From assembly GCA_021234155.1 (NCBI GenBank), contig JAJEKV010000003.1, positions 18,708,386-18,772,385 of the forward strand: 64,000 nt of DNA, in the 5' to 3' direction. The stretch comes from Isoetes taiwanensis. Taxonomy: Eukaryota; Streptophyta; Lycopodiopsida; Isoetales; Isoetaceae. A program made the position numbers and the translations under genes. The notes beneath the pieces are model-generated. The model saw only the letters and a list, made by a program, of their open reading frames with translations. It searched no databases and was not told the origin of the DNA. Of this stretch, positions 551 to 61,930 are shown in pieces. The stretch's first letter is position 1. Each line of letters opens with the position of its first letter.

Positions 551-1125
551 TGTTAGAATAGTTCATGTTATAATTGTTTGATCCAGTCTGAGATTGAAGA
601 CTACATCATGAGGGTGAGATTCATTTAACCTAATGTAGGTGATGGTGATTTATTTCTAAGGTGCCATTAGACCGTAAGACCATTGGTTCGATGAAGACGT
701 TTATATTTATGGTAAATGGACACCTAATATGTGGCTAAGGGGGAAACTTTGTTCAAAACTTCCTGTTTGAGTTTTACATGATAAGCCTAGCTCGATCGGT
801 CCGCCTTAGCGGCCGGATCCAGGGCTATAACATAATCAAGAAGTATTGATTTGATTATCGGCCATATTGAAGTTGAATGCAGGTGCTGGATGGATTATCG
901 GACCTAAAGCTTGGGTTGTCGGGTGCAGGTCAACCAAGCTACAATAGCTTGGTCAATACCAATGCTACAGTGTTTTTACTGTAGCTATTATAAGGTTTGA
1001 AAACAATTGTTTAAGTTGTGAAGATAAACCAAAGGGAGAAATTAGCTAGAGATTATTGCTTGTTTCTATTCAATTTTATCTTTGAATAGATTATCTGCTA
1101 GTACCGTTGTGTTTAAAATTCATCA
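551..1125 (+). repeat. 5' LTR of Copia-A
   Basis: This 575-bp repeat is nearly identical to 5458-6031. It starts TGTTAGAATA and ends TTCATCA, giving the usual TG...CA ends. It should contain the promoter and polyadenylation signals, but I did not identify a specific TATA box with confidence. Confidence 0.97.
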
Positions 1126-1126
1126 T

Positions 1127-1139
1127 TGGTATCAGAGCC
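1127..1139 (+). other. Primer-binding site (initiator-Met tRNA type)
   Basis: TGGTATCAGAGCC begins one base after the LTR end. This is the standard plant copia primer-binding site, complementary to the 3' end of tRNA-iMet, where minus-strand DNA synthesis starts. Confidence 0.93.
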
Positions 1140-1161
1140 AGAGATTCAAGGTGAAATAATC

Positions 1162-2141: not shown

Positions 2142-2221
2142 ATCTGGCACAGGAAGCTAATGGAGATGAGGACGAACACAATGAAGATGATGAGGTAAGA
2201 AGTGCTGAGTTATATCATTTA

Positions 2222-5200
2222 ATGCATGACAAAAATAATCATAACATGATGATTATAGATCCAAGAGCTGAGAGGACAGTGACCTCGTCTTCTCATTCAC
2301 TCAAGAACTGCAAGAAAGTACAAGAAGCACATGTACAATTAGGCAATGGAGATTTGCAAGAAGTCAAGGATTCTGGAATGCTGGAACTGTTCGATCTTGA
2401 TGGGAAGGCAGTCAAGCTAGAAAATGTGCTCTGTGTGCCAGGCCTAGTTAGGAATTTGATTTCTGTGTGTCAACTAGTAGACCTTGGCTATAAGGTCCTC
2501 TTTGAGAGATTACATTGTAAAGTTTTTCTCTGCAATAAATTAAAGTTCATTGGCAAAAGGGTCGGCAACATGTTTGGTTTAAATGTTGATCATTGTGTAG
2601 TTCCTGAAATAAATCTGATAACATGTCCTAATGTTAAAACATGGCATGAAAGGATGTGTCATGTGAATTCTAATACAGTGAAGCTTATGATAAAAAAGGG
2701 ATTGATAAAGGGCACTGCAGAAAATGACAGGGATTTTAAATGTGTTAAATGTAGCTTGGGAAAGCATGCAAAACTCCCATTTAAAAGATCATTAAAAAGA
2801 GCAAAGCACAAGCTAGATCTGATTCATACAGACTTATGTGGACCTTTAAATGTAACTAGTCTGTCAGGAAAAAGATATTTCATGATATTCATTGATGATT
2901 ATAGCAGGATCACTAAGGTTTATTGCTTGAGAACAAAGGATTTAGCACTTCAAGCTTTCAAAAGCTTTGCAAATGAAGTTCAGCTGGAAACTGGAAGAAA
3001 AATCAAGTGTTTATGCTCGGATAGAGGAGGTGAGTTCATGTCAAATGAATTTAAGCTTTATTGTAACAAACATGGCATTAAAAGGCAGCTGACTTGTAGA
3101 TTTCCCCCTCAGCAAAATGGAATTGCTGAAAGAAAGAATAGGACAATCCTTAATGCAGTTAGAAGCATGCTTAAATATTCAGGCTTGCCTAATTTCCTTT
3201 GGGAAGAGGCTGTTAAGACAGCAGTATATGTCCAGAATTTATTGCCATCTATAAGTATTAAAGGGGAAATCCCTGAGACATTATGGTCAGAGAAGTTACC
3301 TAAATATGAAAGGCTTAAAGCCTATGGATGCTTGGCATTTGTCCATGTACCTGATGAGTTGAGAAAGAAACTGGATGACAAGGCTTATATAACTTACTTA
3401 GTGGGATATGATCAACAATCTAAGGCATATAGATTGTATGATCCAAGTAAGAGAAAGATCATAATAAGCAGGGATGTATTGTTTGATGAAGAACAGTTTT
3501 ATAAAGTACTGCCTAAGATTAACAGCCAAGACCCTGCAGCTGATAGCAAAGAGGAAAAAAGGGAAAACCTTGGGAATGCACAAGCCGAAACTACTAGTAC
3601 ATTGGACAATGATGATGATGATGTAAATGTCAAACAATTGTTAAATGAACCTAGTGATGTTGATATTGAAAGTGTGCAGGCTGAAAGTATACAACCTGAA
3701 ATTGCATCTGAGCAACAAGAAGTGAACCAAGGAGAAATGTTGAGAAGAAGGAGGAGAACTGAAGCAGAAATACTTCGAGAAGGTGCAGTCAATCTTGAGT
3801 CATTAGGACGAGATAACATGGGTAGGAGCAAGAGACTTAGAGAAAATGAAGTTGAGATACTCAGTCTTTTTGAAATTTTGATGCATTTGGATCTCTGTAC
3901 CTAAGTCTTATGATGAAGCAATGAATTCTCCTGACTGTAAAGAATGGTTGAAAGCTATGCAAGCTGAAATGCAATCCTTTAGTAGAACAAATACTTATGA
4001 ACTTGTGGATATGCCAAGTGGAAAAAATATTGTTGGTAACAAGTGGATTTTCAAGATAAAGACGGAAGCAGATGGGGTAACTCCTAAATTTAAAGCACGG
4101 TTGGTAGCTCAAGGCTTTACTCAGAAGTATGGTCAGGACTATGATGAGACTTTTTCTCCACTTGTTAAAATGAATAGCATAAGGATGTTATTATCAATCG
4201 CAAATGCAGCAGACTTAGAAATGCATCATATGGACGTAAATACAGCATTTTTAAATGCAAGGTTAGAAGAGGAAATTTACATGAGATTACCTCCAGGTTT
4301 TGAAGAAAGAGCAGGTAAAGTATGGAAACTAAATAAGGCAGTATATGGTTTTAAGCAGTCCCCAAGAGAGTGGTAAAAGTGCATTGATTCTTTTCTCAAA
4401 GAGAAGGGGTTTACTAAATTGCAAAATGATGGAAATCTGTATAAATTTCATAGAGGAGCTGAATGGTGCATAATAGCACTTTATGTGGATGATAACATCA
4501 TGATGTCAAATGGCATAAATGTTCTGGAGCATTGCAAAAGCATTTTGAAAAGCAAATTTAAGATGTCTGATCTTGGTGAGCTAAAGAAATTCCTGGGAAT
4601 TGAAGTACACAAAGACAGAGCTAATAAGATACTAAATTTGACTCAGAAAGGTCAGATTGAAGGGATGCTTAGTAAGTTCAACATGAATGATTGTAATACT
4701 TGCAAAACTCCTATAGTTCCAGGATGTAAGATATCTGCCAGAATGTGCCCCAAGACTAATGCAGAACGAGAAGAAATGACCAATGTACCATATATGTCAT
4801 TAATTGGTTGCCTATCTTATGTGGCTAACTGCACTAGACCTGATATAGCTTATGTGGTAAATATGTTAAGCAGATACAATAATGATCCAGGGAGGGAGCA
4901 TTGGGTAGGTGCAAAACGAGTCTTAAGGTATTTGAAGGGCACCATGAATCATGGCATTAGTTACTGTTCTGAAAATCTACAATTATTGGCATACTGTGAT
5001 GCTGACTGGGGAGGAGACCTAGATAGCAAAAAATATACATCAGGCTATTTAACATTTTTAGGGGGAGCTCCAGTTAGTTGGAAGTGCAAAAAGCAGAATG
5101 CCACTGCAATATCTGCTGAAGCTGAATATGCTTCAGCAGTATTAGCCACAAAAGAAGTCATATGGGAAAGAAGACTTTTGATTGAACTTGGTTACAATCA

Positions 5201-5462
5201 AGACAAGGCAACAGAATTATACTGTGACAATACAAGTTGTATAGCAATGACAAAGGATCCTGTATTTCATGAGAGGTCAAAACACATTGAATTGGAGCTA
5301 CATTTTATCAGGGAAATAGTTGGGAAAAACATAGTAAAGTTATATGTGAACACTTCGAAACAGTTAGCAGATCTACTCACTAAGGCACTGCCAGAGAAAA
5401 GGTTTACAGAGTTGAAGTGTTTAATAAATTGTTTGGATTATAACATGAAGGGGGAATGTTAG
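2222..5462 (+). pseudogene. Copia-A pol (protease, integrase, RT, RNase H), broken
   Basis: The first part, 2222-3904, holds a decayed aspartic protease whose usual DSGA motif reads DPRA (about residues 13-16). It then has the integrase zinc finger (WHERMCH and CVKC, about 141-177) and the integrase core, with D near 204 (HTD), D near 267 (SDRGGEF) and E near 303 (AERKNR). A frame change lies between 3890 and 3921. Reverse transcriptase continues at 3921-4376 and is stopped by an in-frame TAA at 4374. From 4419 it carries the active-site YVDD, then RNase H (AYCDADWGG, SAEAEYAS). Length and order fit an intact copia pol apart from these lesions. Confidence 0.95.
5448..5457 (+). other. Polypurine tract of Copia-A
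   Basis: AAGGGGGAA directly precedes the TG of the right LTR. It is the expected plus-strand primer for reverse transcription. Confidence 0.85.
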
Positions 5463-6031
5463 AATAGTTCATGTTATAATTGTTTGATCCAGTCTGAGAT
5501 TGAAGACTACATCATGAGGGTGAGATTCATTTAACCTAATGTAGGTGATGGTGATTTATTTCTAAGGTGCCATTAGACCGTAAGACCATTGGTTCGATGA
5601 AGACGTTTATATTTATGGTAAACGGACACCTAATATGTGGCTAAGGGGGAAACTTTGTTCAAAACTTCCTGTTTGAGTTTTACAGGATAAGCCTAGCTTG
5701 ATCGGTCCGCCTTAGCGGCCGGATCCGGGGCTATAACATAATCAAGAAGTATTGATTTGATTATCGGCCATATTGAAGTTGAATGCAGGTGCTGGATGGA
5801 TTATCCGACCTAAAGCTTGGGCTGTCGGGTGCAGGTCAACCAAGCTACAGTAGCTTGGTCAATACCAATGCTACAGTGTTTTTACTGTAGCTATTATAAG
5901 GTTTGAAAACAATTGTTTAAGTTGTCAAGATAAACCAAAGGGAGAAATTAGCTAGAGATCATTGCTTGTTTCTATTCAATTTTATCTTTGAATAGATTAT
6001 CTGCTAGCACCTTTGTGTTTAAAATTCATCA
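5458..6031 (+). repeat. 3' LTR of Copia-A
   Basis: This is the partner of the LTR at 551-1125, one base shorter, with about 11 substitutions. It ends in TTCATCA, followed immediately by the duplicated target CAGTC. Confidence 0.97.
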
Positions 6032-11950: not shown

Positions 11951-12042
11951 ATGAGAATGAGAATGAGAATGAGAATGAGAATGAGAATGAGAATGAGAAT
12001 GAGAATGAGAATGAGAATGAGAATGAGAATGAGAATGAGAAT
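11951..12042. repeat. (ATGAGA)n hexanucleotide array, 3' tail of LINE-A
   Basis: About 15 copies of ATGAGA occur on the plus strand. They translate as MRMRMR, which is an artefact. The array ends exactly where the conserved LINE 3' end begins, so on the LINE strand it is a (TCTCAT)n tail. The other two family members here carry different tails. Confidence 0.9.
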
Positions 12043-13797
12043 GATTTTTTATCGTCCACTGAGGCCAATCGGCCTATGGGACCCATAAGGAGCGCAGCAA
12101 ACTTATTACTGTCCAGGTTAAAAAACCCCCGCCCCGAAGGGTTTTCGAGGGAAAAACCGTGGCAGTAATAAGAATGCTGTCAAACTGTACAAGTATACAT
12201 CAATGTATATATACATGTCAAGTGTGTGCCCGAGGACATAGCTGATCTCGCATGTCCATAACCTCCTGAAGATATGATCCCAGCACCCGTACGGATGCTG
12301 TGCTCAATGTCACATGTAACGGATGGCGGGCGACCAACTCAAAGATAGCGTGTCCGAATTTGATCATATGCTGGGCAACTTTGAAGGGTATGAGATTCAT
12401 CCTCAATGACTCCCATTTGGCAAAGCATTGATGAGCCCGCCCTGGCGTGGCTCACCAATCCATCCGCCCATCTCAATTCGAAGATGATGTGCCCCTGTGC
12501 GAATGGAGGCAATGAGTCTGCGCCTTTTCATGGGCAAGTGGGTACGCAGGTAGCATTGCGGGCCTCGTTCCAACGTGGGATTTATGTGGCACTGGTAGTT
12601 GACCTGTTCAAGGGCATTGGCATCCCAAAGCTTGCTGAGGAAGCAAGCGTCAAGATATTGCCTCAAGCTATGGCGATCTGCCTCTGTTTGCACATGTCAT
12701 GCATGCACCTGTGCTCCTGCACATTCCATCTAGCCAACCATTGAGCTCTCTTTTTTTTCCTCCAAAGCAGGCCTTGAGGGCCGCCAAGGCCCCATTGCCA
12801 TGATATAAGCTAGTTTAGGGAGACGAGCATCATCTATATTGACCACCTTCTGAAAATAGACAATGTGGCGATCAAGGGCCGCCCTCTGAAGAGGCAAGAA
12901 TCTTGTCTCCTCCAGTAGAATTTGATATGGGACTGTGGACTTCACCCCTAGTGCTCGTACTAAGAAGGCTTTCTGGACCTGCTCCAAGTCATTCCAAGTA
13001 GCAAGTGATACTACTGGGCCCCATACTTCCACCCCGTATAAAAGGACAGGCTCCACTAAGACCTTGAACAGGTGTGACTGATGGGCCCAATCATACAACT
13101 CCTATGACTATTGTTTTGCATTGCATATAGTGCCTTCCAGCCTGCCGTCACTCGTAGCCGTATGGATGTGTACCAGTGCATAGTAGAAGGAAACTCCACT
13201 CCCAAATATTTGTATGTGGATGCAACTTCCACATTCTGGCCTCGGTAATTGAAGGAGGGAACCCTCGGCTGACTTGAAGATGATATGAAAACCACCTTAG
13301 TCTTGGCAAGGTTGATGCGCATATCAGTCGCTTGGCAGAATGTGTCCAGGGCATCGAGATGTCGTTGCATGTCTGCTGGTATGTAAGCTAGGAGGTCCAC
13401 ATCATCAGCATATATTAACTGTCTGATGATCTGATAGAGAAGGTGAGCTCCATCGCCCCCATTATCAGCAAGCCAGCTCTCCAATTGATCAATGTAAAGC
13501 CCAAACAATGTTGGGGAGAGAGGGCATCCCTGACGAACCCCGATACTACTATCAAATGGTTGGCTTGTCTGCTGCAACCGACCCGAGCATCTTTCGTATA
13601 GCCTGTACATTGCATTCTGCAAATCTACAGGAACCCCTAGCTGTTGCAGTCTTGCCCATAGTTTCTCCCGAGGCACAGTGTCAAATGCCTTTGCAAAATC
13701 CACAAAGCAACAATATAGATCCTGACGGCGGTTCCTGCTGTCTTCAATCAGAGTTCGCAACGTGAAGATGTGGTCAATAGTTGAGTGCCGGGAAGAA
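12043..13797 (-). mobile_element. LINE-A: 5'-truncated non-LTR retrotransposon
   Basis: The minus strand encodes reverse transcriptase motifs CCFVDFAKAFDTVPREKLW, GVRQGCPLSPTLFGLYIDQL and LIYADDVDLLAY, then NLAKTKVVF and a C-terminal region with a decayed cysteine/histidine motif. It starts abruptly near RHSTIDHIF at about 13797, so the endonuclease and ORF1 are missing, the usual 5' truncation. The RT frame is open for 234 codons to about 13056, then continues in a shifted frame. The 3' UTR (12043-12180) is nearly the same as that of LINE-C and includes a GGGTTTTT/AAAACCC-rich block. The clade is not assigned. It does not look like typical plant L1, which has a poly-A tail. Confidence 0.93.
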
Positions 13798-14080
13798 ATC
13801 CAAACATAAAAAGATAACCTTTGCTAGGCAAATGGATAATGTAATTCTCGAAACCATTGCCACCTAAAGTTAGTTAGACTCTCTTGGTAGTTAGGGTTTT
13901 CTGACTTATAGATGCCATTTCTTCCCTTTTCATCTTCATCAGCTCATCTGCGTTCTCCTTTTGTCGAGACTTTCTTCAATCTACTTTCCTTTATCTCCAA
14001 GTTTCTGTTGGGCTAGAATATGATAATGCTAAGGCCAAGGGTGACAATAGCAGTGCATGGGAATGTTTTCTTCTAGATGA
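13798..14080. other. No gene seen
   Basis: This is spacer between LINE-A and the acidic region upstream of the FCP1-like pseudogene. I see nothing in it that I can support. Confidence 0.45.
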
Positions 14081-17479: not shown

Positions 17480-19757
17480 CTTCTGGACTGCAACCCCAGG
17501 ACCTTCTGGCGAAGGGTGCTCAGAAAGCCAGCACAACTTACAGGGAACATCACTCTCGAACAGTGGAGGGAATACTTGCAGTAGCTCTATGATCCCCATG
17601 ATGCTCGGATAGCGGTACCCATTCAGGATGGCCCGGTCAGGAAAGCACGGAGGCTGATGTATTCCAAAGCTTGTAGTGTCTTGCCAATGGGAAAGCGCCA
17701 GATTTGTATGGCATGCAAGAAGAGTTGCTCAAATGAGCGGGGCCACCCATGGCACCGGTCCTAACTGCCCTGTTCAATAGGGCATTACAAGAAGGATTCC
17801 CCCCATAGTGTACTGCTAGCAGAGTTGTGTCCATCCACAAGACAGGTGACCCCTATAGCTGAGCCAATTACCGGATGATCATGGCCAGTTCGGTGCACCA
17901 AATTGCTAGCCGAAATTCTCGAGCAGCAGCTGACTGATTGGGCCGAGGTGGCAGAAGTGCGAGCCCTAATATAGGCAAAATTCAGGCCACGACACTCAAC
18001 CATTGACCACATCTTCATGCTATCAACTCTGATCGTGGATAGCAGGAACCATAGATAGGACTTGTATTGCTGATTCATACTTTGCCAAACCATTTGATAT
18101 TGTGCCCGGAAAAAGCTGTGGGCACGGTTGCGAGAGCTAGGGGTCCCTGTGGATCGCAGAATGTAGTTTACAGGCTATGAGAGAGGCCAGTTGCAACTGG
18201 CAGAGCAGCCATTTGATAGCAGTGCCAGGGTCCGTCAGGGATGCTCTCTCTTTCCAACACCGTTTGGATTCTACATTGATCAACTCGAGCTCTGGCTTGA
18301 CAACAACGGTGGAGATGGGGTTCAACTGTTGCATCAGATCGACAGACATCTAATATATGCAGATGATGTGAACCTTCTAGCCTACACCTCGGCGAATATG
18401 CAATGCCACCTTTATGTCTTAGACACATTCTGCCAGGTGATGGACATGCGCGTCAACCTGGCCAAGACTAAGGTGGTTCTCATATTACCATTGCACCAGC
18501 CAAGGATCCCTTCCATCAGTTGCCGCCGACAAAATATAGAGGTGGCACCAAGTTACAAGTACCTGAAGTGAAGTTTTCTTCTGCCGTGTACTGGGACACT
18601 TCCATTTGGCTGCAGGTGACAACAAGCTGGAAAGCATTATTCGCAATGCACAACAACAACAATAAAGCAGAGTTGTATGACTGGGCTCATTAGTCGCACA
18701 TGTTCAGGATTTTGGTGGAGCCTGTCCTTCTGTAGAGGGTTGGAGTCTGGAGGCCAGTGGTATTCCTCGCCACATGGAATGAATTGGAGCAGGTGCAAAA
18801 AGCCTTCTTGATATGGGCACTAGGGTGAAGTCCACGGTCCCGTATTAAATCCTGTTGCAGGAGACATGCTTTTTGCCTCTTCAGAAGGCAGCCCTGGACT
18901 GCCACATCGTCTATTTTCCAAATATGGTTAGTATGGATGATCCTCATCTCCCTCATCTGGCCTACATAATGGCCATGGGGCCGCAACGCTTGAAGGCCTG
19001 CTGGAAAGACAAGAGAGCTCAATGGCTGGCCAGATAGAATGTTCAGCAGCATAGGTACATACAGGTGCAAACCGATGCAGATCGCCATAGCTTGAGGCAA
19101 TACCTTGACATCTATCTTCCTCCTCAAGCTCTAGGATGCCGCCACCCTTGAATAATTACCGGCACCACATTAACCTCATTGCAACATTACCTGCACACCC
19201 ATCTGCATATGCAAAAGCGCAAACTCATTGCCTCCATCCATATAGGGGCACACCGTCTCCGAATTGAGACAGACCGCTAGACTGGCGAGCCATGCCAGGA
19301 CAGGCTTTGTCAACGTTGCCACGCAGGAGCCATTGAGGATGAATGCCATGCCCTTCAAAGCTGCCCAGCATATGATCAGATCCGGACACGTTACACTGAG
19401 CTTATCGGGCCCGCCCCTACATATGATATTGGGCACGGCTTCAGTACGAACACTGGCAGCGTACCTCCAGGAGGTCATAAACATGCGGGATCAGCTATGT
19501 CCAGCAACACTCATCTGGCATGTATCTCATGATGCATGGTAATTTGTTTTGTATATTTTATACATATGTACAGTTTCACAGCATTCTTATTGCTGCCACG
19601 GTTTTTCCCCGAAAACCCTTTCCGGGGGGGGAGAGGGGGGGAAGGTGGGAGGGGGTTAATCTGGACAGTAATAAATCTGTTGCATTCTTTGTATTGGGTC
19701 CTATAGGCTACTTGGTCTTTGTGGACACCAAGAACCCTTCTATTCTATTCTGTTCTA
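17480..19757 (+). mobile_element. LINE-B: degraded non-LTR retrotransposon, plus strand
   Basis: This is the same family as LINE-A and LINE-C. The stretch 17500-17660 matches the linker before RT. RHSTIDHIFML lies near 17994. GVPVD lies near 18150, and the best-preserved frame, 18191-18571, holds VRQGCSLFPTPFGFYIDQL and LIYADDVNLLAY. Downstream frames to about 19540 hold the C-terminal region. The 3' UTR at 19595-19735 includes GGTTTTTCCCCGAAAACCC, shared with the other copies. Many stops and frame changes are present, so it is an old copy. It ends in a short TTCTATTCTATTCTGTTCTA tail at 19738-19757. Confidence 0.9.
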
Positions 19758-30422: not shown

Positions 30423-31086
30423 TGTTGAGATAATGATGGAAGACCGTATTTATCATCCGGGATGTGGTTAATCTGGACACCCATTATTGAGCCACCAAGA
30501 TGGTTCTTGGTAATATTGCAAGCCCAAAATAGACTTTTTGCCCTTTTTGATCGATTCTCGCTTTTTTTGATCAAATCTCTTCTTCTCTTGTCAATCTAGC
30601 ATAAAAAGGGGCATACAAACAAGAATTGGCATGTTTTTAAACGGATCAAACCGCCAAGTTACAAATGGAAGAAGAACGATCAAAATTTCTGCCCCCACAA
30701 TGCCACAGTGTGGTTCTGGAAAATGCCTGGTTTTTGTCCGGATTAACCACTTTTTGTCCGGATTAACCACTTGGCTGATATCGGATGTCCGGATTAACCA
30801 GATTGGGGAGGCTGATATAGGATGTCCGGATTGGTGAAGAAATGGCACGGATGTCCGGATTAACCATGATGTTTTGTCCGAAAACCACATCCCGGATGAT
30901 ATATACGGAATTAATGATCGAGATTCTCGCTTTAATGCTCGCGATGTTTGAAAAAACGTCAAAAAGATTAGTTGAGCTATAAATGGTTCTTGGTAATATC
31001 TAGGACTCTATTAATAGACTTGAGAGCTCCATAACGGTATCTCGTAATTTTCTTTGATCGGGATTTTTTGTGTTGTAATTGTTTCA
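30423..31086 (+). repeat. 5' LTR of Copia-B, split by a MITE
   Basis: LTR sequence occupies 30423-30437 and 30912-31086. It pairs with 39040-39222, sharing GAGCTATAAATGGTTCTTGG and GAGAGCTCCATAAC. It is followed at 31087 by TGGTATCATGTACC, a diverged initiator-Met tRNA primer-binding site. Confidence 0.9.
30438..30911. mobile_element. MITE (~474 bp) in the Copia-B 5' LTR
   Basis: Flanks share TAATGAT (30431-30437 and 30912-30918), which occurs once in the intact 3' LTR, so it is a 7-bp or slightly longer target duplication. Inverted repeats at 30444-30469 and 30883-30908 begin CCGTAT and include CATCCGGGATGTGG, with one mismatch. Inside, GTCCGGATTAACCA or close variants occur at about 30735, 30755, 30787, 30823 and 30853, and inverted near 30463. 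No protein is encoded. The superfamily is uncertain, with hAT or Mutator likely from the TSD size. Confidence 0.88.
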
Positions 31087-31391
31087 TGGTATCATGTACC
31101 AAAACAAGAATCGGAGAAAAGTTTGTGTGAACAAGGCAAGATGGCCAAGTTGAAAATGGATCTGAAGAACGTTGGAGAAGCTTTTTCGAACCAATGAGTG
31201 TGGTTGTGGAAAATGCACTTCGGCTATTCCGGAAGAACGTGATATCTGGGATGTTGTGAGTGGAGTTGAACCAAGACCGAGATTGGGGAGGCAGTGAAAT
31301 GATAGAGATGGAGTTTTTGTGAAAGAAATGGCATCTCCGGGCTGCATGGAAGAAGAAGGATGATCGAGCAAAAACATCCATGATGATGGGG
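31087..31391 (+). pseudogene. Copia-B gag, N-terminal part
   Basis: After the primer-binding site, frames in this stretch read ERDIWDVVSGVEPRP and DRAKTSMMMG, typical of the copia gag N-terminal domain. Indels shift the frame between these strings. The reading stops at the boundary of the inserted element and resumes at 35003 with LKDGQIPLVR. Confidence 0.8.
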
Positions 31392-31560
31392 AAGGGCAAA
31401 TGGGACTTGATTCCGGTTTTGTTTTAGGTGGGGTAGGGGGAACCGGGCGGTAGCCGGAGCGGTCACCTAGAAACCGGAATCAAGGACCATTTAATTCGGG
31501 TATAGATTTCATTGTGGACCCCACCTAGAAACCGGAATCAAGTCCCATTTGCCCTTCCCC
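31388..31560. repeat. 173-bp foldback at left end of the Crypton-like element
   Basis: The arms 31388-31419 and 31529-31560 are perfect 32-bp reverse complements, starting GGGGAAGGGCAAATGGGACT. Between them a second, imperfect copy of the arm (AAACCGGAATCAAGGACCAT, near 31470) is present. It may be a hairpin-type end or a separate small MITE that landed next to the element. Confidence 0.85.
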
Positions 31561-32473
31561 ACAATATAGAAATAGGGGAGATTTTTTTCTCCCTTTTCTT
31601 CTTCGTGATTTTTTCGGATCTCTCTGAGGCCATGGATTCTTCGAGGCCGTGGTTATTTCCTCCAGCGAGATCCGGCCGAGTAAAGCGGCCAGGATGAAGG
31701 GCTTTGCTCGCAAGAAGCGTTTTGAAGGCATTTTGGCTTTTTTTCGAATTTCATGAAGATTTTTGTAGCAGTTCGAATTTTTGTTGCTGATTCTTGTTGC
31801 TTAGTTGTATCGGACGTTAGTGTTGCATCGGACTTGGGTAAAACACAAATGTTCAAGTTTTTGTGAAACTTTCATGTATTCTTATTGTTTTTGCAATCTT
31901 TAATTGCTTTTTGTTTGATGTGTTTACCAAGAGGAAAGGAAATAGGGTCGATTCCGTCGAGTTTTGTTTTTGGGAACAAGCTCCAAAGTTAGTTCAGAGT
32001 TAATTTTGTATAGATTTAATTGTGTTTTGTTTGTAGATTTTTCTTTATTTTTAGGCATGCAAGGTTTTTTCTTGATTATATGCTCTTCTTTTGTCAGATT
32101 CTCCTAAAAGATGCATTCGAGGCTTGTTGAGAAGTTGGTTATACTTTTGAGCATTCGGTTTTGGAGGTAAATTTTCATGGATGCAGGTATAAGTTAGTTG
32201 TGGGATCTAATTTTTTGAATGTTGTTGCGAGATAGTTGTGGAGTTGTAAATCTTGGTTATAACTAGAAGGTTAGTGGGTCACATGTGTGTTAGGTGAGTA
32301 TGCATGTGTAGTAGGGTAGTCCAAATGTGTTTATTTAGTGCAAAAAATAATCTTGGAGTATATTCTTTGTTAAAAAATATGTTTAATTTTTGCGTGATGC
32401 ATTTAACCAAAGGGGAGATGTTATACCAAGAAATATAGTTTTACCATTTTTGATGGGAGATGTTATACACGCA

Positions 32474-34456
32474 ATGTTGAATGTGTCTTCGGAGGAGCAT
32501 TTGAATGGATCTGAGTCAGGTAATTTTCTTATCTATTGTTTACCTTTTGATAGTTTTTAATTATTATTCTTTATATGTAGGTGTTGGTTGTCCATCATTT
32601 AGTCTTGGTAGTCCTTTTGAGACTACTCCTAAAGATGGCATTGTAGGCATCAACTTGTGAGGCGGCCTTTTGATGGTAGTTTTGATCCCATTTAATGTAA
32701 TTACAATTTGAGTTTGATTGCGCACAAAACCAAAGATGATAATAGAGGAGGGTGGTTCAAGTTTAAGTACCGGATGAAATAATGCACGATGGCGATGAAT
32801 ATGATGATTTAGTGGGTGATCGGGCGCCGTGGAAAGAAGCCATTGAAGCTTGGTGGTTTTGTTGAGCTGAATCCAGAGCTTGTTACTAGGGTGACTAATG
32901 CCTTTGCAAGTCCTTTGGAAACAAAGGACGAATGGGTCAGGGGCAGGTTTGATGCATGGCGGATGCATCTTGGGAAACCAGTTGATCTTAAAATTGAAGA
33001 CATGGAATTGGACATTCTTGCTGAGTATTTGGAAGAGTTCATGCCTTGTGTGCGTCGAATCGATGGGAAGCCATATCCACTAGACACGTAAGCTGTTTAT
33101 TATTGCTTTATTATTGTTTATTATTAGTTTATTATTCTGACATGTTTTCTGCTGTGCAGGTTGCAGAATCTGTTCCGTGGTTTCAATAGAATTTTACGTC
33201 GGGCACAGGATGCTAGGATCATGAATACTCGACAGGAAGAGAAAGTAATTGACATCTATAAGGATGTCAAGTTCATGAAAGCTCGTAAAGCTTTGGAGGT
33301 TGCGATGGAGGAATCTGTTGCTGCCGGGTTTACTCCGAAGAGGAAGAAATCAGATATATTGAGCCGGGAAGACCAATCCAAAATTCTGCAACATCCAGCA
33401 CATCAAGTGAGCAATAATTTGGGACTGCGGAAGAGGTTTGCTTTCTATTGTATGTCACGTTTTTTAATTCGTGGGGGCGAGGAATTATGTAAGATCAGAG
33501 ATTTTCAGTTTTATATTGGAAAAGACTTTGTGAATCAGTATCTAGAATTCTGTGAGACGACCAGTAAGAACTGGCGTGGCGGGATTAAGAAGTGCAAGCC
33601 TGAAGATTTCAGGGAGCCCGTCAGATGCTACGAAGCTGATGTCATAGAGTGCTGGAGACATTTAGAGTACCGTTTACCAAAGTATGAGGTGAAGGATAAG
33701 TATGGTGGCAGGTTCGTCTTCTTGCAGGCTATTAATCGTCCCTGAAAAGATATATGGTATAATACGAATCATGTTTCATCGAAAACCATGTCAACTTGGC
33801 TGAAAGACATGGTTGAGGTGTGTGGGATAGATGGAAATTTTACTAACAAAAGCTGCAGGAGTACTGCAATTACGCAGATGTCAGTGTCAGGTGTGCCTAT
33901 TGAAGTTGGCATGAAGATTACGAGTCACAAGAATGCTGAATTATATCAGTGTTATGATCAGAGTGGGGTTGTCGCACGAGCATCTGCTATGGATGTTCTG
34001 AATTCTGGTAAGACATATGTAGAGTCTTTTCAGAATAATGTCAAAAACTTGAATGCTGGATTGTGTGGGAATCCGGAGAAGGCGGCTAGTTTATGTTCGT
34101 CATTTGGAAATCTTTTGTGTGATATCACGAACAGCAAGAGTGCTTCAAGTTCTATGCAGGCTGTTACTCCAGGTTCTAGTCGTCAAGTGCCGGTTGAAAT
34201 AGATGATTCATACATGAATGACTTGGATCTGGTGCTAAAACAGAAGCCTGATTTGAAGAAATATTTCTCTGACCCTGTAGAGAATGCTGCTGGATCTGGA
34301 AGCGTGAGTATTTCAGGTAATAAAATTGAGAATATTGTGATTCATGTGGGAAGTTTAACTAAAGCTGGATCTCTTATAAAATCTCTGTAAGTATTTTCTT
34401 TATAATTTTCTTGGTTTCTTTATAATCTTTGGTTTTAATTGTTTATGCTTTGCAGG
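32474..34456 (+). pseudogene. Tyrosine-recombinase-like protein (Crypton/DUF3504 family), one nonsense codon
   Basis: The gene has several exons. A short Ser/acidic exon (ATG 32474 to 32519) is followed by a 61-bp intron and an exon from 32581 that loses frame near 32670. The main exon from about 32816 ends at 33087, with a 72-bp intron (33088-33159, GTAAGC to TGCAG). The long exon from 33160 ends before GTAAGT at 34388, with a short last exon at 34456. Box I Arg is in RGGEEL (33470). Box II Arg is in NKSCRST, a His lies in TSHKNAE and the candidate nucleophile Tyr is in LYQCYDQ (about 33950). Thus R, R, H, Y remain, while the usual His of HxxR is Asn. An in-frame TGA at 33743-33745, possibly a CpG-decayed Arg codon, separates box I from box II. 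The N-terminal region is basic and helical. Confidence 0.8.
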
Positions 34457-34544
34457 AAATGAGGGTGCAGCTGCAATGTGGATAGTGGAGTGTCTGGAAT
34501 TTGCAGTACGGGGAAGAGGCAATTGGGACTTGATTCTGGTTTGA

Positions 34545-34980
34545 ACTGCGCTAATGAGATGTGATAACTTTCAGTGTTGTAAATCTGCAACTTTTGATGT
34601 TTAGTGTCTTAAGTTTGAGTACTTTGAGTACTCTGTTGGGATAACTTTCACTGTTGCTGATCTGCTACTTTTGATAACTTTGATAATCCAAGTTTGTACT
34701 GAAATCTAACTTTGATGATCTAAGTTTTGTACTGAAATCTAAGTTTGATAATTTGAGATTTGTAACTTTGATGTTTGTAACTTTGATGTGAACTTTGATG
34801 TGTAACTTTGATGTGAACTTTGATGTTTACAACTTAAAACTGCTTGAAAAAAATTTAGAAGTGAAAAAACAGGCAATGACCGGTTCAACCTGTCACGCGG
34901 AATTAGGGCACCCAACTGCCATTCCGGGATATTGGCTGTGACACGTGTCAAGCCAGAAATGCACCAACAATAAAAAAAAT
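34545..34980. repeat. Simple AACTTTGATG-type repeats, 3' region of Crypton-like element
   Basis: Degenerate tandem words AACTTTGATG and TCTAAGTTTG fill about 34600-34830. This is the untranslated right part of the element, up to its right inverted repeat. No gene is seen. Confidence 0.6.
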
Positions 34981-35002
34981 CGACCCTATTTCTATATTGT
35001 TT

Positions 35003-35779
35003 GGGCTCAAGGATGGGCAGATTCCATTAGTGAGATTGAAGAACACTGCAAAGGAAGGATGGGAGTGCTTGAAGAAAACATTCAAGGCTCATAACACGTC
35101 ACAGAAATGGTTTTTGTGGCAAAAATTTTTTAGTGCTAAAATGAAGGAAGAGGATGATCCCACTGATCATATTAGCACTATGGAAAGCCTAGCAGATCAG
35201 CTTGCAGCACTAACTGACTCTATTAGTGATGAGGATTTGGCTATGGCAATATTGGCAAGCCTTCCAGGATCCTATGACTCGATCAAACAGGCCATGGGAT
35301 GTAAAGATGGAAAAATGAAGAGTGAGGCAGTGATTGGTGCTGTGCTTCAAGCATCTCATCTCCTCAAGAAAGAGGAGAAAGAATCAGCCTATGTGGCCAA
35401 AGTCAAGGCTTCAAGAAACGATTTTGAATGCTGGTCTTGTGGCAAGAAAGGCCATATTGCAAGGAATTGCAGACACTCCAAGAAAGTTGGGGACAAAAAG
35501 GCTGACAAAGAGAGAGTTGATAGCAAAAAATACAGGAAGGCCAGATCCGGTGAAAGAAGATGGAATAATGCCCGCTCTGGTGGCTCGGGGGCAAGCGTGA
35601 CAGAAGATACCTCTGCTAAATCTTCAGAAGAAGAAGAAGATAGTGAAATTGAAGAGAATGTAGCTGTCCTAGTTGACCAAGAATCTGAAAGTGACTGGGA
35701 GAACGATGCATCCTTGGAATTGTACAAGAGCTTTCTCAATTCTCGGTGGAACTCCAGCAACTCCAGCATGCATGTTTGA
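35003..35779 (+). pseudogene. Copia-B gag, C-terminal part with zinc knuckle
   Basis: The frame opens with LKDGQIPLVR and continues as an alpha-helical capsid region (LADQLAALTDSISDEDLAMA, SLPGSYDSI). It reaches the CCHC knuckle CWSCGKKGHIARNC near 35431-35472, then a basic and acidic tail. The protease follows in another frame, overlapping from about 35770. Confidence 0.9.
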
Positions 35780-38700
35780 TAATGAAGAGGAACAAAGAGA
35801 GCATATTGGATTTGCTGCTGAAGTTGAAAGCACAGAAGCAATGGCATTAGTAGCAAGTGCAATTCAAGAAGATGCTTGGATCCTTGATTCGGCTGCTACC
35901 CATATTATGACTCATAACAGGGAATGGTTAAAAGATTACAAAGCTGATGACAGTCACAAAAGAGTAAGCGGAATTGCATCTGGACTTCAGGTTATGGGGA
36001 CTGGAACCATGACCTTTAGATTCTCTGATTATTCCAGAGGCCTTAAGAATGTACTCTATGTGCCCAAGCTTCCATGTAACTTGGTGTCATTGTCAAGATT
36101 GGCTGATGCTGGAGTGTTTGTATGGGTGGAAAGACATGAGATTTTGCTCATGAATGCAAGAAAGGAAGTTATTGGAAAAGCTAGTTGTGTGGGCTACCTG
36201 TACAAACTATTGGCACAAGATCAAGAGCTGCAACCAAGTGTGGTGTCTGGAATCCAGGTCATACCCAAAGGCAACTTGGGTTTATGTGAAGGGTGTGTAC
36301 TGAGCAAACATCATCAGAAGAAAATCAAGAGATAAGGTACTAGGGCCACAAGAATTGTTCAGTTGATTCATACTGATCTGAGTGGGTGGATGCCAGTAAT
36401 GTCATTGGGTAAAGCGCAATGTTTTTTAGTTATTGTGGATGATTTTTCCAGAAAGTCCTTTGTGTTTCTACTCCATAAGAAAAATGAAGTGTTGGATATC
36501 TTCAAAACATGGATGAAACAAGTGGAGAAGGAAACTGGCCATGTTGTGACAGCAATTAGAAGTGATAATGGGACCGAGTTTGTGTCCAAGGAGTTCAACA
36601 CATGTTTGGAACAGGCTGGTGTGAACAGACAGTTTCAAATCCACATGAGAAATGGCAGAATGGAGTAACATAGAGAAAGATGCGCACTTTGAAAGAGTGT
36701 GCATTCAGTATGTTGAGATGGGCAAAATTGGCAGATGTTTTTTGGGGGAGGCTATTCATACATCGTGCTTTCTTCAAAATCGAGCTTCTACCGTGGCTGT
36801 CAAAGCAAAAACACCAGAAGAAGTCTGGAGTGGTCTGAAACCTAGTGTTGAGAATCTGAAAGTGTTTGGATGTATGGCGTATGCCTTTGTTCCAAAGGAG
36901 CTTAGAGAATCCAAATGCGGAGTCAAGTCAAGAAAGTGCATATTTGTGGGATATTGTCAGGAAGGAAAGGGGTATAGACTGTTTGATGTACAGACCAGAA
37001 AGATTGTCAAAAGTAGCAGTGTTCACTTTGATGAGTTCGGAGTAGCAGCCCGAGCAATCACTGGAGATGATGAAGAGAAGGATCTGTTTCAAGAGCAAAC
37101 CGTGTTGTGGTTAGACATGCAAGAAGAGTTCTGCCCCAAAGTCATTGATATCATTCCTGCTCAAGCACAGGTCCCGGACTCACACACAGGGTTGCATTCT
37201 CCACCATCATCTTTACACAGGCACAATAGTCCTCCGAGGGAGATAATTGCTCCTTTGAGGAGGAGTCTACGTGGGCATCATCCCACTCAAAAATGGCTGG
37301 AGAAGAAAGGGCATCAATCTACAGCATTGGCAGAGGCTATGCATGTTGAGATTATGATTGAGAGACAACTAGGTTCTGGTGGCAAGAAGATTTTGAAGAA
37401 AAGTGTATTGCAGAATGTTTCCAATCATAATTTTTAGAGCCACTAACAGTCCAAGAAGCAGTACATGGACCGGATCTTGAGCATTGGGAACAAGCTATGC
37501 ATGAAGAGATTGGAGCTATGCAGATGACAGAAGCTTGAGAACTTGTAGATCTTCCATAGGGCAGAAAGGCAATTGGATGTCGCTGGGTGTTCAAGATTAA
37601 GCAAGCTCAAGATGGATCAGTAGCTAGGTATCGAGCTCGGCTCGTGGCACAAGGTTTTTCTCAGCAACAAGGGATAGATTTCGAGGAGACCTTCTCGTCA
37701 GTTGCTAAGATGACATCCATTTGAACAGTGTTGGCACTCGCAGCTCAAGAGAGTATGGAAATCCACTAGATGGACGTCAAGACCGCTTTTTTAAATGGAC
37801 ATTTGATTGAAGAAATTTTCATGAGACGGTTTTGATCAAGAATCAGGGAAAGTATGTAAGCTTAAGAAGGCTCTGTATGGATTAAAGCAAAGTCCGTGCA
37901 CGTGGTATCTAAGACTGGATACTTTTCTGAAGCAGCTTGGTTTTCAGAGATGCACCACTGAATGGAATGTGTATTACATATGGGTAGACAACAAAATTAC
38001 AATGGTAATAGTGTACGTGGATGATCTGATCATTGTTAGTAAAGGTATGGAAGGGATTCAAGACATAAAAAAGGCACTTCATATTGAGTTTCGCATGACC
38101 AATTTGGGTGAGATACAGACTTGTTTGGAACTTCAAATCACTCGAGATAGAGCGAAACGAACTTTGCTCATTCATCAAAAACAGGCTATTCTTAAGTTGT
38201 GCAAAAGGTTTGGTATGGGGAATTGTGAGATCAAGGAGACACCTGCAGCTTTGCATTGTAGATTGAGGGGAGAAAAGGCTCCGAAAACCAATGAAGAGCA
38301 ATCAGTTATGGCACAAATACCTTACAGAAATGCGGTTGGCTCCTTGATGCATGTGATGGTCAGTACAAGACCTGATATTGCCCAAGCAGTAGGCATGGTT
38401 AGCAGGTTCATACATAATCCAGGTATAGAACATTCTAAGGATGTTAAGAGGATTGTGAGATATCTTCGTGGTACAGCAAATATGGGTTTGAGATATGGTC
38501 CAGACTCAAATCACCCTTCCGTTCGCCTTGTATCTTTTGTAGATGCAGATTGAGCAGGAGATCAGGATAGCCGGAGATCAACAACAGCTTTTTGTGTGAT
38601 GTTACATGGGGCAGCAGTCACTTGGACTAGTTGTAAGCAAACATCAGTGGCTTTGTCATCAAGTGAGGCTGAGTGCATAGCTACCTCCACAGTAGTGAGA

Positions 38701-38900
38701 GAAACAACATGGTTAAGGCAATTTTTGGCAGAGATTGGATATGGTCGACCTGAGCCCACTGTTATCTACAATGATAACAAAAGTAGCATTGCCTTGACTG
38801 AAAATCCAGTCCATCATAGAAGGTCTAAGCATACCTCAATCCATCACCACACTAGAGGAAAGTTGTGGATCGAACTATTCAGATGAGATATATTTCAACA
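35673..38900 (+). pseudogene. Copia-B pol, broken
   Basis: Protease has WILDSAATHIM near 35880 (DSA where DSG is usual). Integrase shows HTDLSGWMP, VDDFSRKS and SDNGTEFVS. The third catalytic Glu region is scrambled at 36650, where the frame changes. An in-frame TAA lies at 36333. RT starts near 37450 with stops (ARLVAQGF, MDVKTAF readable) and keeps YVDDLIIVS near 38015. RNase H follows, with SFVDAD, a stop, then SSSEAECIA and YNDNKSSIAL. Several independent lesions fit an old copy. Confidence 0.92.
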
Positions 38901-38979
38901 GATGAAATGCCAGCAGACATCTTGACGAAGCCTATGACAAAAGAAAAGTTCCTGCAGCACAGGAATACCCTGGGTATGG

Positions 38980-39039
38980 ATTCTTCATTATAAGTAGAAA
39001 GGAGGAGTTGGATTTCTCATTATAAGTAGAAAGGAGGAG
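38980..39039 (+). other. Duplicated polypurine tract of Copia-B
   Basis: Two copies of a stretch ending AAGTAGAAAGGAGGAGT lie back to back, with the second abutting the LTR. The second copy is the plausible plus-strand primer. Confidence 0.7.
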
Positions 39040-39222
39040 TGTTGAGATAATGATCGAGATTCTGCTTTAATGCTCTGCATGCTGTTAAAAACAGAAAAAG
39101 ATCAGTTGAGCTATAAATGGTTCTTGGTGTAAATATCTAGGATTCTATTAATAGACGTGAGAGCTCCATAACACGTATCTCAGAATTTTCTTTGATCTGC
39201 GCCTTGTGTTGTAATTGTTTCA
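39040..39222 (+). repeat. 3' LTR of Copia-B
   Basis: This 183-bp uninterrupted LTR runs from TGTTGAGATAATGAT to TTGTTTCA and is followed by the GCATT duplication. It provides the unsplit reference showing the MITE insertion in the left LTR. Confidence 0.93.
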
Positions 39223-40990: not shown

Positions 40991-41616
40991 GATGCGGAGG
41001 TGCCAAAGATATATAGTACTGTGGAAGTACAATAACGTAAATACTTGTTTTTGAGTTCGCAGGGTTGAGGAACTTTCAGATTCATGTTGATCATGGAATA
41101 ACCACCTTGAGAAGGGATGGACCAAATTGGAGCGTACTTGGACGATCGCGGACGATCTTTTTGAGAAGGAATGGATTGATATAGAGTAAAGCACAGGGGA
41201 GTGGTCCACGACAACTGGGTTATTGAAGCATGGCAAAAATATGGCAAACATTACATGTTAATGTGTTATTCCCAAGTGGTCTAATAATATATTAAAGGCA
41301 AGGGATAACCATTGAAAGGAAGGACATATATTAATAGGGTCCTTTATTGGAAATACTAATAAAAGGTAGGCATCGGGAATATCAAAGGAAGGAAGGAAGG
41401 AAGGAAGGTACTTTTATCGTCCACGGAGACCAATCGGTCTATGGGACCCAATACAAAAACGCAGCAAGCGGATTACTGCCCGGATTAAAAAACCCCCGCC
41501 CCGAAGGGTTTTCGAGGGAAAAACCGTGGCAGCAATCAGCCTGCTGACAAACTGTCCTAACATATAAAATGCAAAAACACCCAAATATATACAGTCATGC
41601 ACCACACCCGTAGTGC

Positions 41617-42270
41617 CTAATCAGCGGGCAGCCAGGCGGGGGCAAAGTGACCTCGCAGGTCCAAGACCTCTGAAGATAACGATCCTGTGGCACGATCGAC
41701 GGCAGGTTCATCAAGAAATGCAAGGGCAAGTCCGGCCGTACTAAGGGAGCGTGATTCGCCCGGATCCGATTGAACGCCGGGCAACTCGGAAAGTGTGAGA
41801 CTCATCCTCAATGGCACCGTTTGACAAAGACCGACAGAGCCCGCCCCGGCGGGGCTTCCCAATCCACCGCGCCTCGGATCGCGAAGATGGTGGGCACTGT
41901 CGCGAATGGAGGCAATGAGTCTCGCTTTTTGGGGCAGCTGGGAACGCAGGTAGAGCTGTGGGCCCCGGGCTAACACGGGGTTGATGTGCTCCTTGTAATG
42001 GGCCATTTTGACCTGCTCTAGAGCGCCAGGGGTCCAGAGCTTGCCAAGGAAATAAGCGTCTAGGTACTCCCGCAGTCGCCACGATCCGCGGCCCACCGCC
42101 TGCGCGCATCTATGCTCCCGCGACGTTCCACCGGGCGAACCACTGATCTCTCTTACCCCTCCAACAGGCCCTAAGCCGATCGGACCCATGGCCCGATGTA
42201 AGCTAGGTCGGGGGGAGCCGAGCATCACCCATAGTAACCACTTTCTGAAAATAGACGATGTGTCTATCAA
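41617..42270 (-). pseudogene. LINE-C C-terminal region
   Basis: The frame reads HINPVLARGPQLYLRSQ, ARLIASIRDSAHHLR and a Cys/His-containing segment (CRSLSNGAIEDESH in an alternative frame). It aligns with LINE-A residues ERGPQCYLRTHLP and RLIASIRTGAHHLR. This is the zinc-binding-like tail typical of LINE ORF2. Confidence 0.75.
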
Positions 42271-42384
42271 GGGCTGCCCGCTGAAGTGGCAAGAATCCAG
42301 TTTCCTGCAGCAGAATCTGATAGAGGACTGAAGGTTTCACCCCAAGTGCCCGTGCCAAAAATGCCTTACGACACTGCTCCAAAG

Positions 42385-43804
42385 TCATTCCGGTCGCCAA
42401 AGAGACGACCGGGCCCCAAACCTCGACCCGATAAGGACAGGCGGTGCCTCGACGGATGTCATGGCCCCAATCATAGAGCTCACCGGGTGATCGTTGTTGT
42501 TCGCGATGGCATAAAGCGCTTTCCGGCCCGTCACCCCGCAAGCGGATAGACGCCTCCCCAGAGCGAGGAGGGGAACTCCATCCCTAGGTACTTGTAGGTG
42601 GGCGTGATGTCCACTGTGCCGCCCCCGATATGTGAGTGCGGGAGGCATGGGGTGACGGAAGAGGATATGAGAACCACCCCGGTCTTGGACATGATTGACG
42701 TGCATGTCCAGAGCCCGACAAAATGTGTCTAGGGCATCGAGGTGAGATCGCGATAGCTTCGGGGGTAAAATAAAGAGGCCAACATCGGCCCCGCGATAGA
42801 TGAGCCGGGCGGATGACACGGTACAAAAGTCGTATGCCATCCCCCCATGCTCGCGAAGCCGTGGCTCTAACCGATCAATGTAGAGGCCAAAAAGTGTTGG
42901 CGAGAGGGGGCAACCCTCGCGGACCTCGATACTACTTGGTGAATGCTTGGCCCGTCGGTGCACGATCCCGCCAAAACAACTCTCATACAACAACTCAGTA
43001 TATGGCATTCGCATGGCAGCGGGAGCCCGATTGACGCAGTCTAGCCTACGCCTTTTCGGGAACCGTATCAAAAGCCTTCGCGAAGTCCACAAAGCAGCAA
43101 TACAAGTCCTGCCGATGATTCCGGCTGTCTTCAATCAGTGCCCGCAGTGTAAAGATATGGTCAATCGTTGAGTGGCGGGGTCTAAAGCCTGCCTGTGTGA
43201 GGGCTCGCACATCTGCTGCCTCTGCCCAGCGGGTCAACTGCTGCTCGAGAATGCCAGCCAACAGTTTGGCAAATACTGAACTGACCATGATCGTCCGGTA
43301 ATTGGCCGGACAGTGTGGGTCGCCCGCCTTGTGAATGGGAACAACCCTGCTTGTGGTCCATTGTCGGGGGAGACCTTCCTGCAATGCTCTGTTGAACAGG
43401 GTAGTGAGGACCGGCACAAGCGGCTGCCCTGCCCATTTGAGTAACTCGGCCTGCATACCATCGAGGTCAGCTGCCTTCCCATTAGCCAGCCGTTGCAGGC
43501 CCTCCTCAACATCCTCGTCCACGAGAACCAATGGGGGGCCATCCTGTGGGGGGTATGCACGCCCCGGGCGGGTCATAGAGCCGCCGCAAGTACCGTTCCC
43601 ACTTTGCCGGGTGTGATGTCCCCTCAGAGGTGGGCTGGCCTTGAAGCACTGCGCCAAAAGGTTCGAGGATGAGTGTCCGAAAGGCCGAACATCTCCCCTT
43701 GATGCACGGCAAGGTACCCGCCTTTGTGTCCTTCGATGGGATGGCATCGCGGTGGTGGCCCAAGGCGGTACGGATCGGATCAGATGTGGAAGCTGCGCTT
43801 GCAT
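42385..43804 (-). pseudogene. LINE-C reverse transcriptase domain
   Basis: RT fingers and palm are well preserved in 43804-43046: LANGKAADLDGMQAELLKWA, VVPIHKAGDPHCPANYRTI, RALTQAGFRPRHSTIDHIF and CCFVDFAKAFDTVP. After a frame change the frame to 42385 has REGCPLSPTLFGLYIDRL and LDALDTFCRALDMHVN. The catalytic YADD stretch is damaged by small indels. Confidence 0.88.
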
Positions 43805-59824: not shown

Positions 59825-60555
59825 TATATCCTAGCCTGCATGGCATGTTTGAGCCACCTTGGCATGTTGGAGCCCACGTCGCATGTATGAGCCACCTTGG
59901 CATGTTGGAGCCTATGTGGCATGTTGGAGCTCGCGTTGCCTAGGCGGCATGCTTGAGCCACCTTGGCAGGTTGGAGCCTAGGTGGCACGTTGGAGCCCAC
60001 ATGGCATGTTTGAGCCACCTTGGCATGTTGGAGCCTAGATGGCATGTTTGAGGCATGTTGGCATGTTGGAGCCCACGTGGCATGTTTGAGCCACCTTGGC
60101 ATGTTTGAGCCTAGGTGTTATGTTGGAGCCCACGACATATTTGAGCCACCTTGGCATGTTGGAGCCTAGGTGGCATGTTGGGCAGCGTGGAATTTTCGAG
60201 CCACCTTGGCATGTTTGAGTCTAGGTGACATGTTGGAGCCTAGGTGGCATGTTTGAGCCACCTTGGCATGTTCTAGCCTAGGTGGCATGTTGGAGCCCAT
60301 ATGGCATGTTTGAGCCACCTTGGCATGTTGGATCCTAGGTGGCATGTTTGAGCCTAGATGGCATGTTTGTGGCACGTTGGCATGTTGGAGCCTAGGTGGC
60401 ATGTTGGAGCCTATAGGTGGCATGTAGGAGCCTGCGTGGCATGTTTGGGCCATCTTGGTATGTTTGACCCCAGGTGGCATGCTTGAGCCACCTTGGCATG
60501 TTGGAGGCCATGTGGCATGTTGGAGCCCGCGTGGCATGCTTGAGCCACCTTGGAT
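59825..60555. repeat. 19-bp minisatellite, ~38 units
   Basis: Units alternate between TGGCATGTTGGAGCCTAGG and TGGCATGTTTGAGCCACCT types. Because 3 x 19 = 57, each minus-strand reading repeats every 19 residues (for example MPRLQHAKVAQTCH-like), which keeps long frames open without selection. It also appears as a single piece at about 61200-61240. Confidence 0.88.
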
Positions 60556-60639: not shown

Positions 60640-61930
60640 GGTGCTTTGCTTAAGAAATAGCCTCAAAAACACCTCAAAAAAACTATACTTCCTTAAGAAA
60701 TAGCTACGTAAAAACTACACCTTGTTATAAACCACACCACTTCAGAAAACCACACTTCTTTAGAAAAAAGCCACTTAAAAACTACACCTACTTAAAAACC
60801 ACACCTAAAAAAACCATACTTACTTTAAAAAACAGCTACTTAAAAACTACACCTAGTTATATAAACCACACCTAAAAAAATCATACTTCCTTAAAAATAG
60901 CTTCTTAAAAACTACACCACTTCAGAAAATCGGCCACTTAAAAACTACACCCGCTTATAAACCACACTTCAAAAAACCATACTTATTTAAAAAACAGCCA
61001 TTTAAAAACTACACCCACTTATAAACCACACCTCAAAAAACAACATCTCAATTAAAAAATCACACCACTTTAAGAAAACCATACTTCCTTAAAAAACAAC
61101 CACTTAAAAACTACACGTCACTATAAACCACACTTCTAAAAATTATACTTCCATATAAAACAACTACTTAAAAACTACACCTAGTTATATAAACAGTCTG
61201 TTTGAGCTACTTTGGCATGGTCAAGCCTCAAAAAACCATACTTCCTTTAAAAAAACAGCTACTTAGAAACTACCCCTAGTTATAAATCACACCTCAAAAA
61301 ACCAAACTTCCTTAATAAATAGCTACTTAAAAACTACACCTAGTTATAAACCACACCACTTCAGAAAACCACACTTCTTAAAAAAACAACCACTTAAAAA
61401 CTACATCTAAACTTGAGGAAAACCATACTTCATTAAAAAACAGCCACTTAAAAACTACACCCACTTATAAACCACACTTTAAAAAACCATACTTCTTTAA
61501 AAAACAGCTATTTAAAAACTACACTTGCTTATAAACCACACCTCAAAAAACAACACCTCGATTAAAAAAATCACACCACTTCAGAAAACTATACTTCCTT
61601 AAAAAACAACCACTTTAAAACTACACCTCCTTATAAACCACACCTCAAGAAACTACACTTCCATAAAAAACAACTACTTAAAAACTACACCTAGTTATAA
61701 ACCACACCTCAAAAAACAACGCCTTCTTAAAAACAACACCCTCTTTAAAAAAAAAACAACACTTCCTTTAAAAAAACCACACCTTAAAAAAAGACCACAT
61801 CTTCAAAAAAAAAAAAAAACTATAGCTCCTTAAAAAAAACTACACCGCCTTCTTAATAAACCACACCTCCACATAACCACATGTAGATTTTTTTGAACGA
61901 CGACATGTGGTCTTTTTTTAACTGTTGTTT
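60640..61930. repeat. Right subterminal repeat array of the CACTA element
   Basis: Some 30 or more degenerate copies of CCACTTAAAAACTACACC and TTATAAACCACACC occur over about 1.3 kb. They are the inverse-strand counterpart of the left array motif GTAGTTTTTAA. Confidence 0.82.

Follow-up and report, generated by a model that had tools for sequence, protein, structure and literature searches.

A probable tyrosine recombinase transposon with terminal inverted repeats, nested in the gag of a copia retrotransposon of Isoetes taiwanensis

We analysed a stretch of 64,000 nucleotides from Isoetes taiwanensis (assembly GCA_021234155.1, contig JAJEKV010000003.1, positions 18,708,386 to 18,772,385 of the forward strand), which is called the window below and is numbered from its first letter. 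Positions 31561-35000 of this window are probably a decayed DNA transposon of ~3.4 kb that carries a tyrosine recombinase (YR) gene, is bounded by terminal inverted repeats (TIRs) and was inserted in the gag of an older copia retrotransposon of the plant. This reading draws on the homology and fold of the YR, the insertion in gag, the inverted repeats at the edges and the decay of the gene.

The host copia covers positions 30423..39222 (+). The start motif of its long terminal repeats (LTRs) was found at 30423 and 39040 and the LTR ends at 31086 and 39222. The alignable LTR parts (30912-31086 and 39048-39222) are 84% identical and a domain search recovered gag, an SH3-like domain and RVT_2. 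Gag itself is split. The right part (35001..35779, +) matches Retrotran_gag_2 with E=1.3e-23 and includes a zinc knuckle (zf-CCHC); the Retrotran_gag_2 match begins at profile position 44 of 172. The left part (31342..31386, +) was recognised from the join of the empty site and the gain in the gag profile: when the left flank up to 31386 meets the right flank from 35001 an unbroken KKKDDRAKTSMMIGLKDGQIPLV reading results, the Retrotran_gag_2 score rises from 83.5 to 99.7 bits and the start of the match shifts from profile position 48 to position 30. Thus ~3.6 kb were inserted in gag. The host copia is old and the insertion postdates its integration, as an original prediction made from the letters of the window had proposed. 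That prediction set the edges of the insertion at 31392 and 35002, which we refined to 31386|31387 and 35000|35001 (± a few bases). It also described a single inserted block and made no mention of TIRs, whereas the block comprises two units, a fold-back sequence of ~175 nt (31387-31561) and the TIR-bounded element (31561-35000), with base 31561 common to both in the repeat calls. Lastly, it took the nesting as proof of mobility. DNA was indeed inserted here, but the nesting does not identify the YR as the agent. As a separate observation, the host copia has another insertion in its 5' LTR at ~30438-30910, whose inverted ends (around CCGTATTTATCATCCGGGATGTGGTT) are at about 30444-30479 and 30875-30908.

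The YR element (31561..35000, +; ~3.44 kb with one recognisable gene) starts with the left TIR (31561..31588, +; sequence ACAATATAGAAATAGGGGAGATTTTTTT) and closes with the right TIR (34973..35000, -), a near-perfect inverse of the left one that ends where gag resumes. The two are complementary at 26 of 28 positions. In a Markov control the best of 2000 pairs, each compared over 33x33 offsets, reached 21/28, so we rejected a chance inverted repeat and take the 28-nt repeats as true TIRs. At 31939..31953 (+), 15 nt match the inner part of the right TIR exactly in inverted orientation, which is unexplained. The TIR pattern was matched once in viral contigs. We also noted tandem AACTTTGATG-type repeats at 34675-34826, near the right end of the element, and none near its left end.

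One rival explanation is a strict Crypton, in which the inverted repeats are incidental, the unit is the whole of 31387-35005 and the 4-bp TGGG at both edges (31387-31390 and 35002-35005) is the recombination core. The size would suit a YR-only element, and Cryptons of fungi and oomycetes typically have short direct repeats (4-6 bp) in the portions of PMC3212892 on which we draw (this and the other papers are cited for such portions throughout). However, the same portions describe Cryptons as having neither TIRs nor long direct repeats, and animal Cryptons as having no terminal repeats, whereas the TIRs observed here are far above the control. A match of four bases with free offset is also weak. 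When the edges were varied by 3 bases, neither the YR element (with the fold-back as its left flank) nor the fold-back (with the YR element as its right flank) showed a direct repeat of at least 3, and the gag flanks gave only TGG. Wider offsets gave TGGG, GGG and TGG, with TGGG around the composite block only. Furthermore, animal Crypton YRs match DUF3504 at E <= 8e-12 (PMC3212892), whereas the element showed no Pfam match to DUF3504 up to E=10 and none to GCR1_C, the domain by which a CryptonF would be recognised (no positive control was run for either). A strict Crypton is thus an unlikely explanation, and the terms 'DUF3504-type' and plain 'Crypton' of the original prediction are not supported, the former in view of the missing domain match and the latter in view of the 28-nt TIRs.

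The YR gene is spliced. Its main exon (33160..34386, +) carries the catalytic domain and accounts for the matches to PF00589, to PHROG integrases and in tblastn as well as for the fold. Read from 33161 to 34387 (+) it has 1 stop in 409 codons, compared to a mean of 27 and a minimum of 12 in 2000 first-order Markov sequences modelled on 31561-35000. A chance open reading frame (ORF) was rejected on this count and on the profile search described below. The N-terminal exon (32582..33087, +) joins the frame of the main exon across an intron at 33088-33159 (72 nt), and a second intron at 34387-34455 (69 nt) leads to the last coding bases and the TGA stop (34456..34462, +). Both introns have GT-AG ends, and with both removed the frame is kept and the stop is reached after SLK. 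The frame of the N-terminal exon, for which we found no Pfam domain match, is open from 32813; the exon is decayed to about 32820, and the readable pieces between 32582 and about 32820 fall in different frames. A possible upstream exon (32473..32519, +; MLNVSSEEHLNGSESG), followed by a possible intron with GT-AG ends (32520-32580), is weak and was found by reading only. The main exon contains an in-frame TGA at 33743-33745. Given this stop and the scattered frames further upstream we conclude that the copy is dead.

The remaining eight ORFs of the block are without an accepted domain, with one match at chance level (E=0.061), and among the tested ORFs there was neither a DDE domain nor a trace of reverse transcriptase (RT). 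The latter bears on the possibility that the element is a fragment of a YR retrotransposon of the DIRS or Ngaro type that lost its RT. DIRS elements do combine a YR with inverted terminal repeats. The missing DUF3504 match would fit as well, as the YRs of DIRS and Ngaro elements also have no such match (PMC3212892). But no RT is found in the block, the repeats enclose a compact one-gene unit with introns, and DIRS elements are reported from green algae only in PMC9033089. We rejected the DIRS fragment on the absence of RT in the block ORFs and consider it very improbable.

By sequence match and modelled fold the gene product is a tyrosine recombinase. On its own, the C-terminal half matched PF00589 with E=1.8e-4 and the joined protein with E=8.8e-6 (26.0 bits; the gathering score of the family is 27.1). 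Two PHROG integrase families matched with E=4.9e-6 and 4.9e-5. With tblastn at a threshold of E=10, 260 plasmid records matched; the best had E=2e-4 and all covered less than 80% of the query. Phages contributed 9 records, the best of which (E=1e-3) came from a cyanobacterial phage. When the window was translated in six frames (761 pieces), a profile of 29 relatives, built with the window protein excluded, matched one piece with E=1.8e-12, and the reversed pieces gave no match. Other searches returned little: phmmer of single proteins against the PDB sequences gave only weak matches (E of 0.71 or worse), NCBIfam gave one weak match (E=0.092) and none of the 19 stretches found by scanning viral contigs with the joined protein was confirmed. 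The fold predicted from the single sequence was unusable, with a predicted local distance difference test (pLDDT) score of 36.2; the structure model built on an alignment indicates the catalytic-domain fold of tyrosine recombinases in the YR protein. The structure comparison listed no Crypton or DUF3504 chain, which says nothing either way. These results agree with the original prediction of a spliced tyrosine recombinase gene, for which a profile and fold search had been suggested as the check; the outcome that would have refuted it, a failure of both profile and fold to match tyrosine recombinases, did not arise. Separately, the best plasmid tblastn matches were short cyanobacterial integrases.

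The four motifs on which that prediction was based, RGGEEL, NKSCRST, TSHKN and LYQCYDQ, were re-read at their places, starting at 33470, 33845, 33920 and 33941, respectively. We compared the residues of the translated protein (P0004) with alignment A3, which has 30 rows, the window protein and 29 relatives. The relatives were selected from 88 loci, of which 85 had ORFs with the box-II pattern and 31 were left after near-duplicates were removed; two more were dropped, one cut by a contig end and one short. From the set R-K-H-R-H-Y, four residues are invariant in 30/30 rows: the beta-strand Lys136 (33566..33568, +), Arg233 of box II, His256 (33926..33928, +) and the candidate nucleophile Tyr265 (33953..33955, +), numbered 82, 179, 202 and 211 for Lys136, Arg233, His256 and Tyr265 in A3. 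The other two deviate. The box-I Arg104 (33470..33472, +) is one residue off the Arg of the relatives in both alignments made. Box II reads K-S-C-R (33848..33859, +), with Lys230 three residues before Arg233 where the relatives carry His; Lys230 is aligned to that His in one alignment, while the A3 aligner puts the Lys in a gap column. The K-x-x-R box is the form found in type IB topoisomerases. The list of relatives is heavy in cyanobacteria in part because the scan was seeded by an alignment that included four cyanobacterial rows. In the tblastn search seeded by the window protein alone, cyanobacterial sequences were the first 12 rows among the best 20 of the 260 plasmid records.

Gag is separated from the left TIR by the fold-back block (31387..31561; 175 nt, no strand assigned), which resembles a miniature inverted-repeat transposable element (MITE) and was recognised by its inverted and direct repeats and its hairpin. 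The arms (31387-31419 and 31529-31561) are 33 nt long and 100% complementary, and a further arm copy is located at 31464-31492. For the block as single-stranded DNA, the folding prediction gives a single long hairpin (-59.9 kcal/mol, z -11.95). The arm motif recurs 3' of the YR stop codon as a direct repeat of 84% (34511..34542, +), and a 19-nt arm core has 4 occurrences in the 64 kb, all of them within the insertion, compared to 0.02 expected. Because the arms are perfect and the adjoining gene is decayed, the fold-back is probably a separate and later insertion. The motif shared between the fold-back and the 3' region of the YR gene is possibly a recognition sequence common to both; a random MITE insertion leaves this shared motif and the exact edge position of the fold-back unexplained. 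A broader reading would see here a land-plant lineage of TIR-bounded YR DNA transposons with a K-x-x-R box II, with the fold-back as its small, non-autonomous companion, set at the end of the element by the element's own recombinase via the arm motif also present 3' of the YR gene. We regard this as rather doubtful.

The fold-back also enters into another rival, a non-autonomous TIR transposon of the DDE type that captured the YR gene as a mere passenger, or that forms a fusion with a YR element in the manner of MarCry, and was moved by a DDE transposase from elsewhere. TIRs are a mark of DDE elements, the fold-back indicates that MITE-like DNA was active nearby, and a precedent exists in MarCry, in which a Crypton is joined to a mariner element that has TA duplications and TIRs of 16 bp (PMC3212892). 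On the other hand, the tested ORFs contain no DDE domain and nothing apart from the YR gene is recognisable in the element. A DDE insertion would also leave a target site duplication and none is visible, although its left copy might be masked by the fold-back. On balance a DDE origin appears improbable, to about the same degree as a strict Crypton.

We return to the TIR-bounded YR transposon and how it might have moved. The YR would bind the inverted ends and pair both TIRs, on the assumption that it acts on these TIRs, with which it forms one unit. Strands would be cut via a covalent tyrosine-DNA bond at Tyr265, the chemistry to be expected from the superfamily. The element would then be freed, probably as a circle, and the reverse reaction would rejoin it elsewhere, in this case in gag. 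A family of copies would be present in the genome, as we infer. Several observations weigh against this reading. Only one copy was seen, with no second within the window, and its gene is dead. The PF00589 score is 1.1 bits below the gathering score, Foldseek gave no match under E=0.001, and the structure model is of modest confidence and was derived from an alignment made of integrases. With Arg104 off register and Lys for His in box II, it is uncertain whether even an intact relative would be active. The edges show no clear target duplication and no evident shared core; a YR would be compatible with this but is not demonstrated by it. Finally, a YR that moves TIR-ended DNA departs from the usual description of Cryptons.

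Several other features were noted in the window. A second copia at 551-6031 has LTR-like repeats (551-1125 and 5457-6031) that are 98.1% identical, with an RVT_2 match between them, and is probably younger. Related sequences similar to long interspersed nuclear elements occur at 12026-13823, 17680-19751 and 41412-43489 with 67-73% identity, one of them with an RVT_1 match. Two large degenerate tandem arrays lie at 59833-60553 and 60669-61880 (periods 19/38/57 and about 64-166), followed by a 725-base direct repeat (62479-63203 and 63279-64000, 99.4% identical) that is cut by the window end (62479-64000). The window also holds arrays of pentatricopeptide repeats (PPRs) and a match to the N-terminus of an ATP-binding cassette (ABC) transporter slightly under the cut-off (E=3e-5), which we take to be of the PDR/ABCG type. 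Together with the copia content, these features indicate a plant host.

YR genes are rare in eukaryotes, and Cryptons are described from animals, fungi, oomycetes and a diatom (PMC3212892). For plants, the portions consulted of a review of land-plant transposable elements (PMC9033089) do not mention Crypton. Three reports with automated tallies count against novelty: in olive 7 matches with 2,054 bases were assigned to 'Crypton' (PMC4007544), 'Crypton' is listed in Asteraceae (PMC4546089), and a table of superfamilies in all groups studied, with land plants as one group, lists Crypton (PMC4438587). Listings and the opening lines of abstracts in the open-access literature yielded no described plant YR transposon, and the portions consulted of surveys of land-plant mobile DNA do not describe TIRs combined with a tyrosine recombinase. 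If our reading is true, the TIR-bounded YR element described here, nested in a plant retrotransposon, would extend the known range and make the movement of TIR-ended DNA by eukaryotic YRs testable.

Among the known systems, the closest sequences found are the short integrases of cyanobacteria, from collections that held no eukaryotic genomes, so that 'closest' says nothing on plant relatives. They share a THSxRRTALTQM-type box II and its spacing with 24-29% identity, but are bacterial, ~220 aa long and intronless and have His in box II. Cryptons (CryptonF/S/A/I; PMC3212892) are likewise DNA elements with a YR as hallmark gene, no DDE or RT found and similar gene content. They differ in having no TIRs and direct repeats of 4-6 bp (none found in the animal ones), in the DUF3504 or GCR1_C match that is missing here and in the box-II His of their YRs, which is Lys in this element. 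MarCry-1_FO also has a YR gene within a TIR-bounded element; its 16-bp TIRs, however, point to a mariner-type transposase, and its DDE transposase and TA target duplications were both not seen in our element (PMC3212892). Starships are YR-driven and, unlike Cryptons, sometimes flanked by inverted repeats (PMC12134995). They have a DUF3435 captain and bring along large cargo, whereas the element described here measures 3.4 kb, has a single recognisable gene and gave no match to DUF3435 (no positive control was run). If our reading is true, it would represent a further architecture, intermediate between those of Cryptons and Starships.
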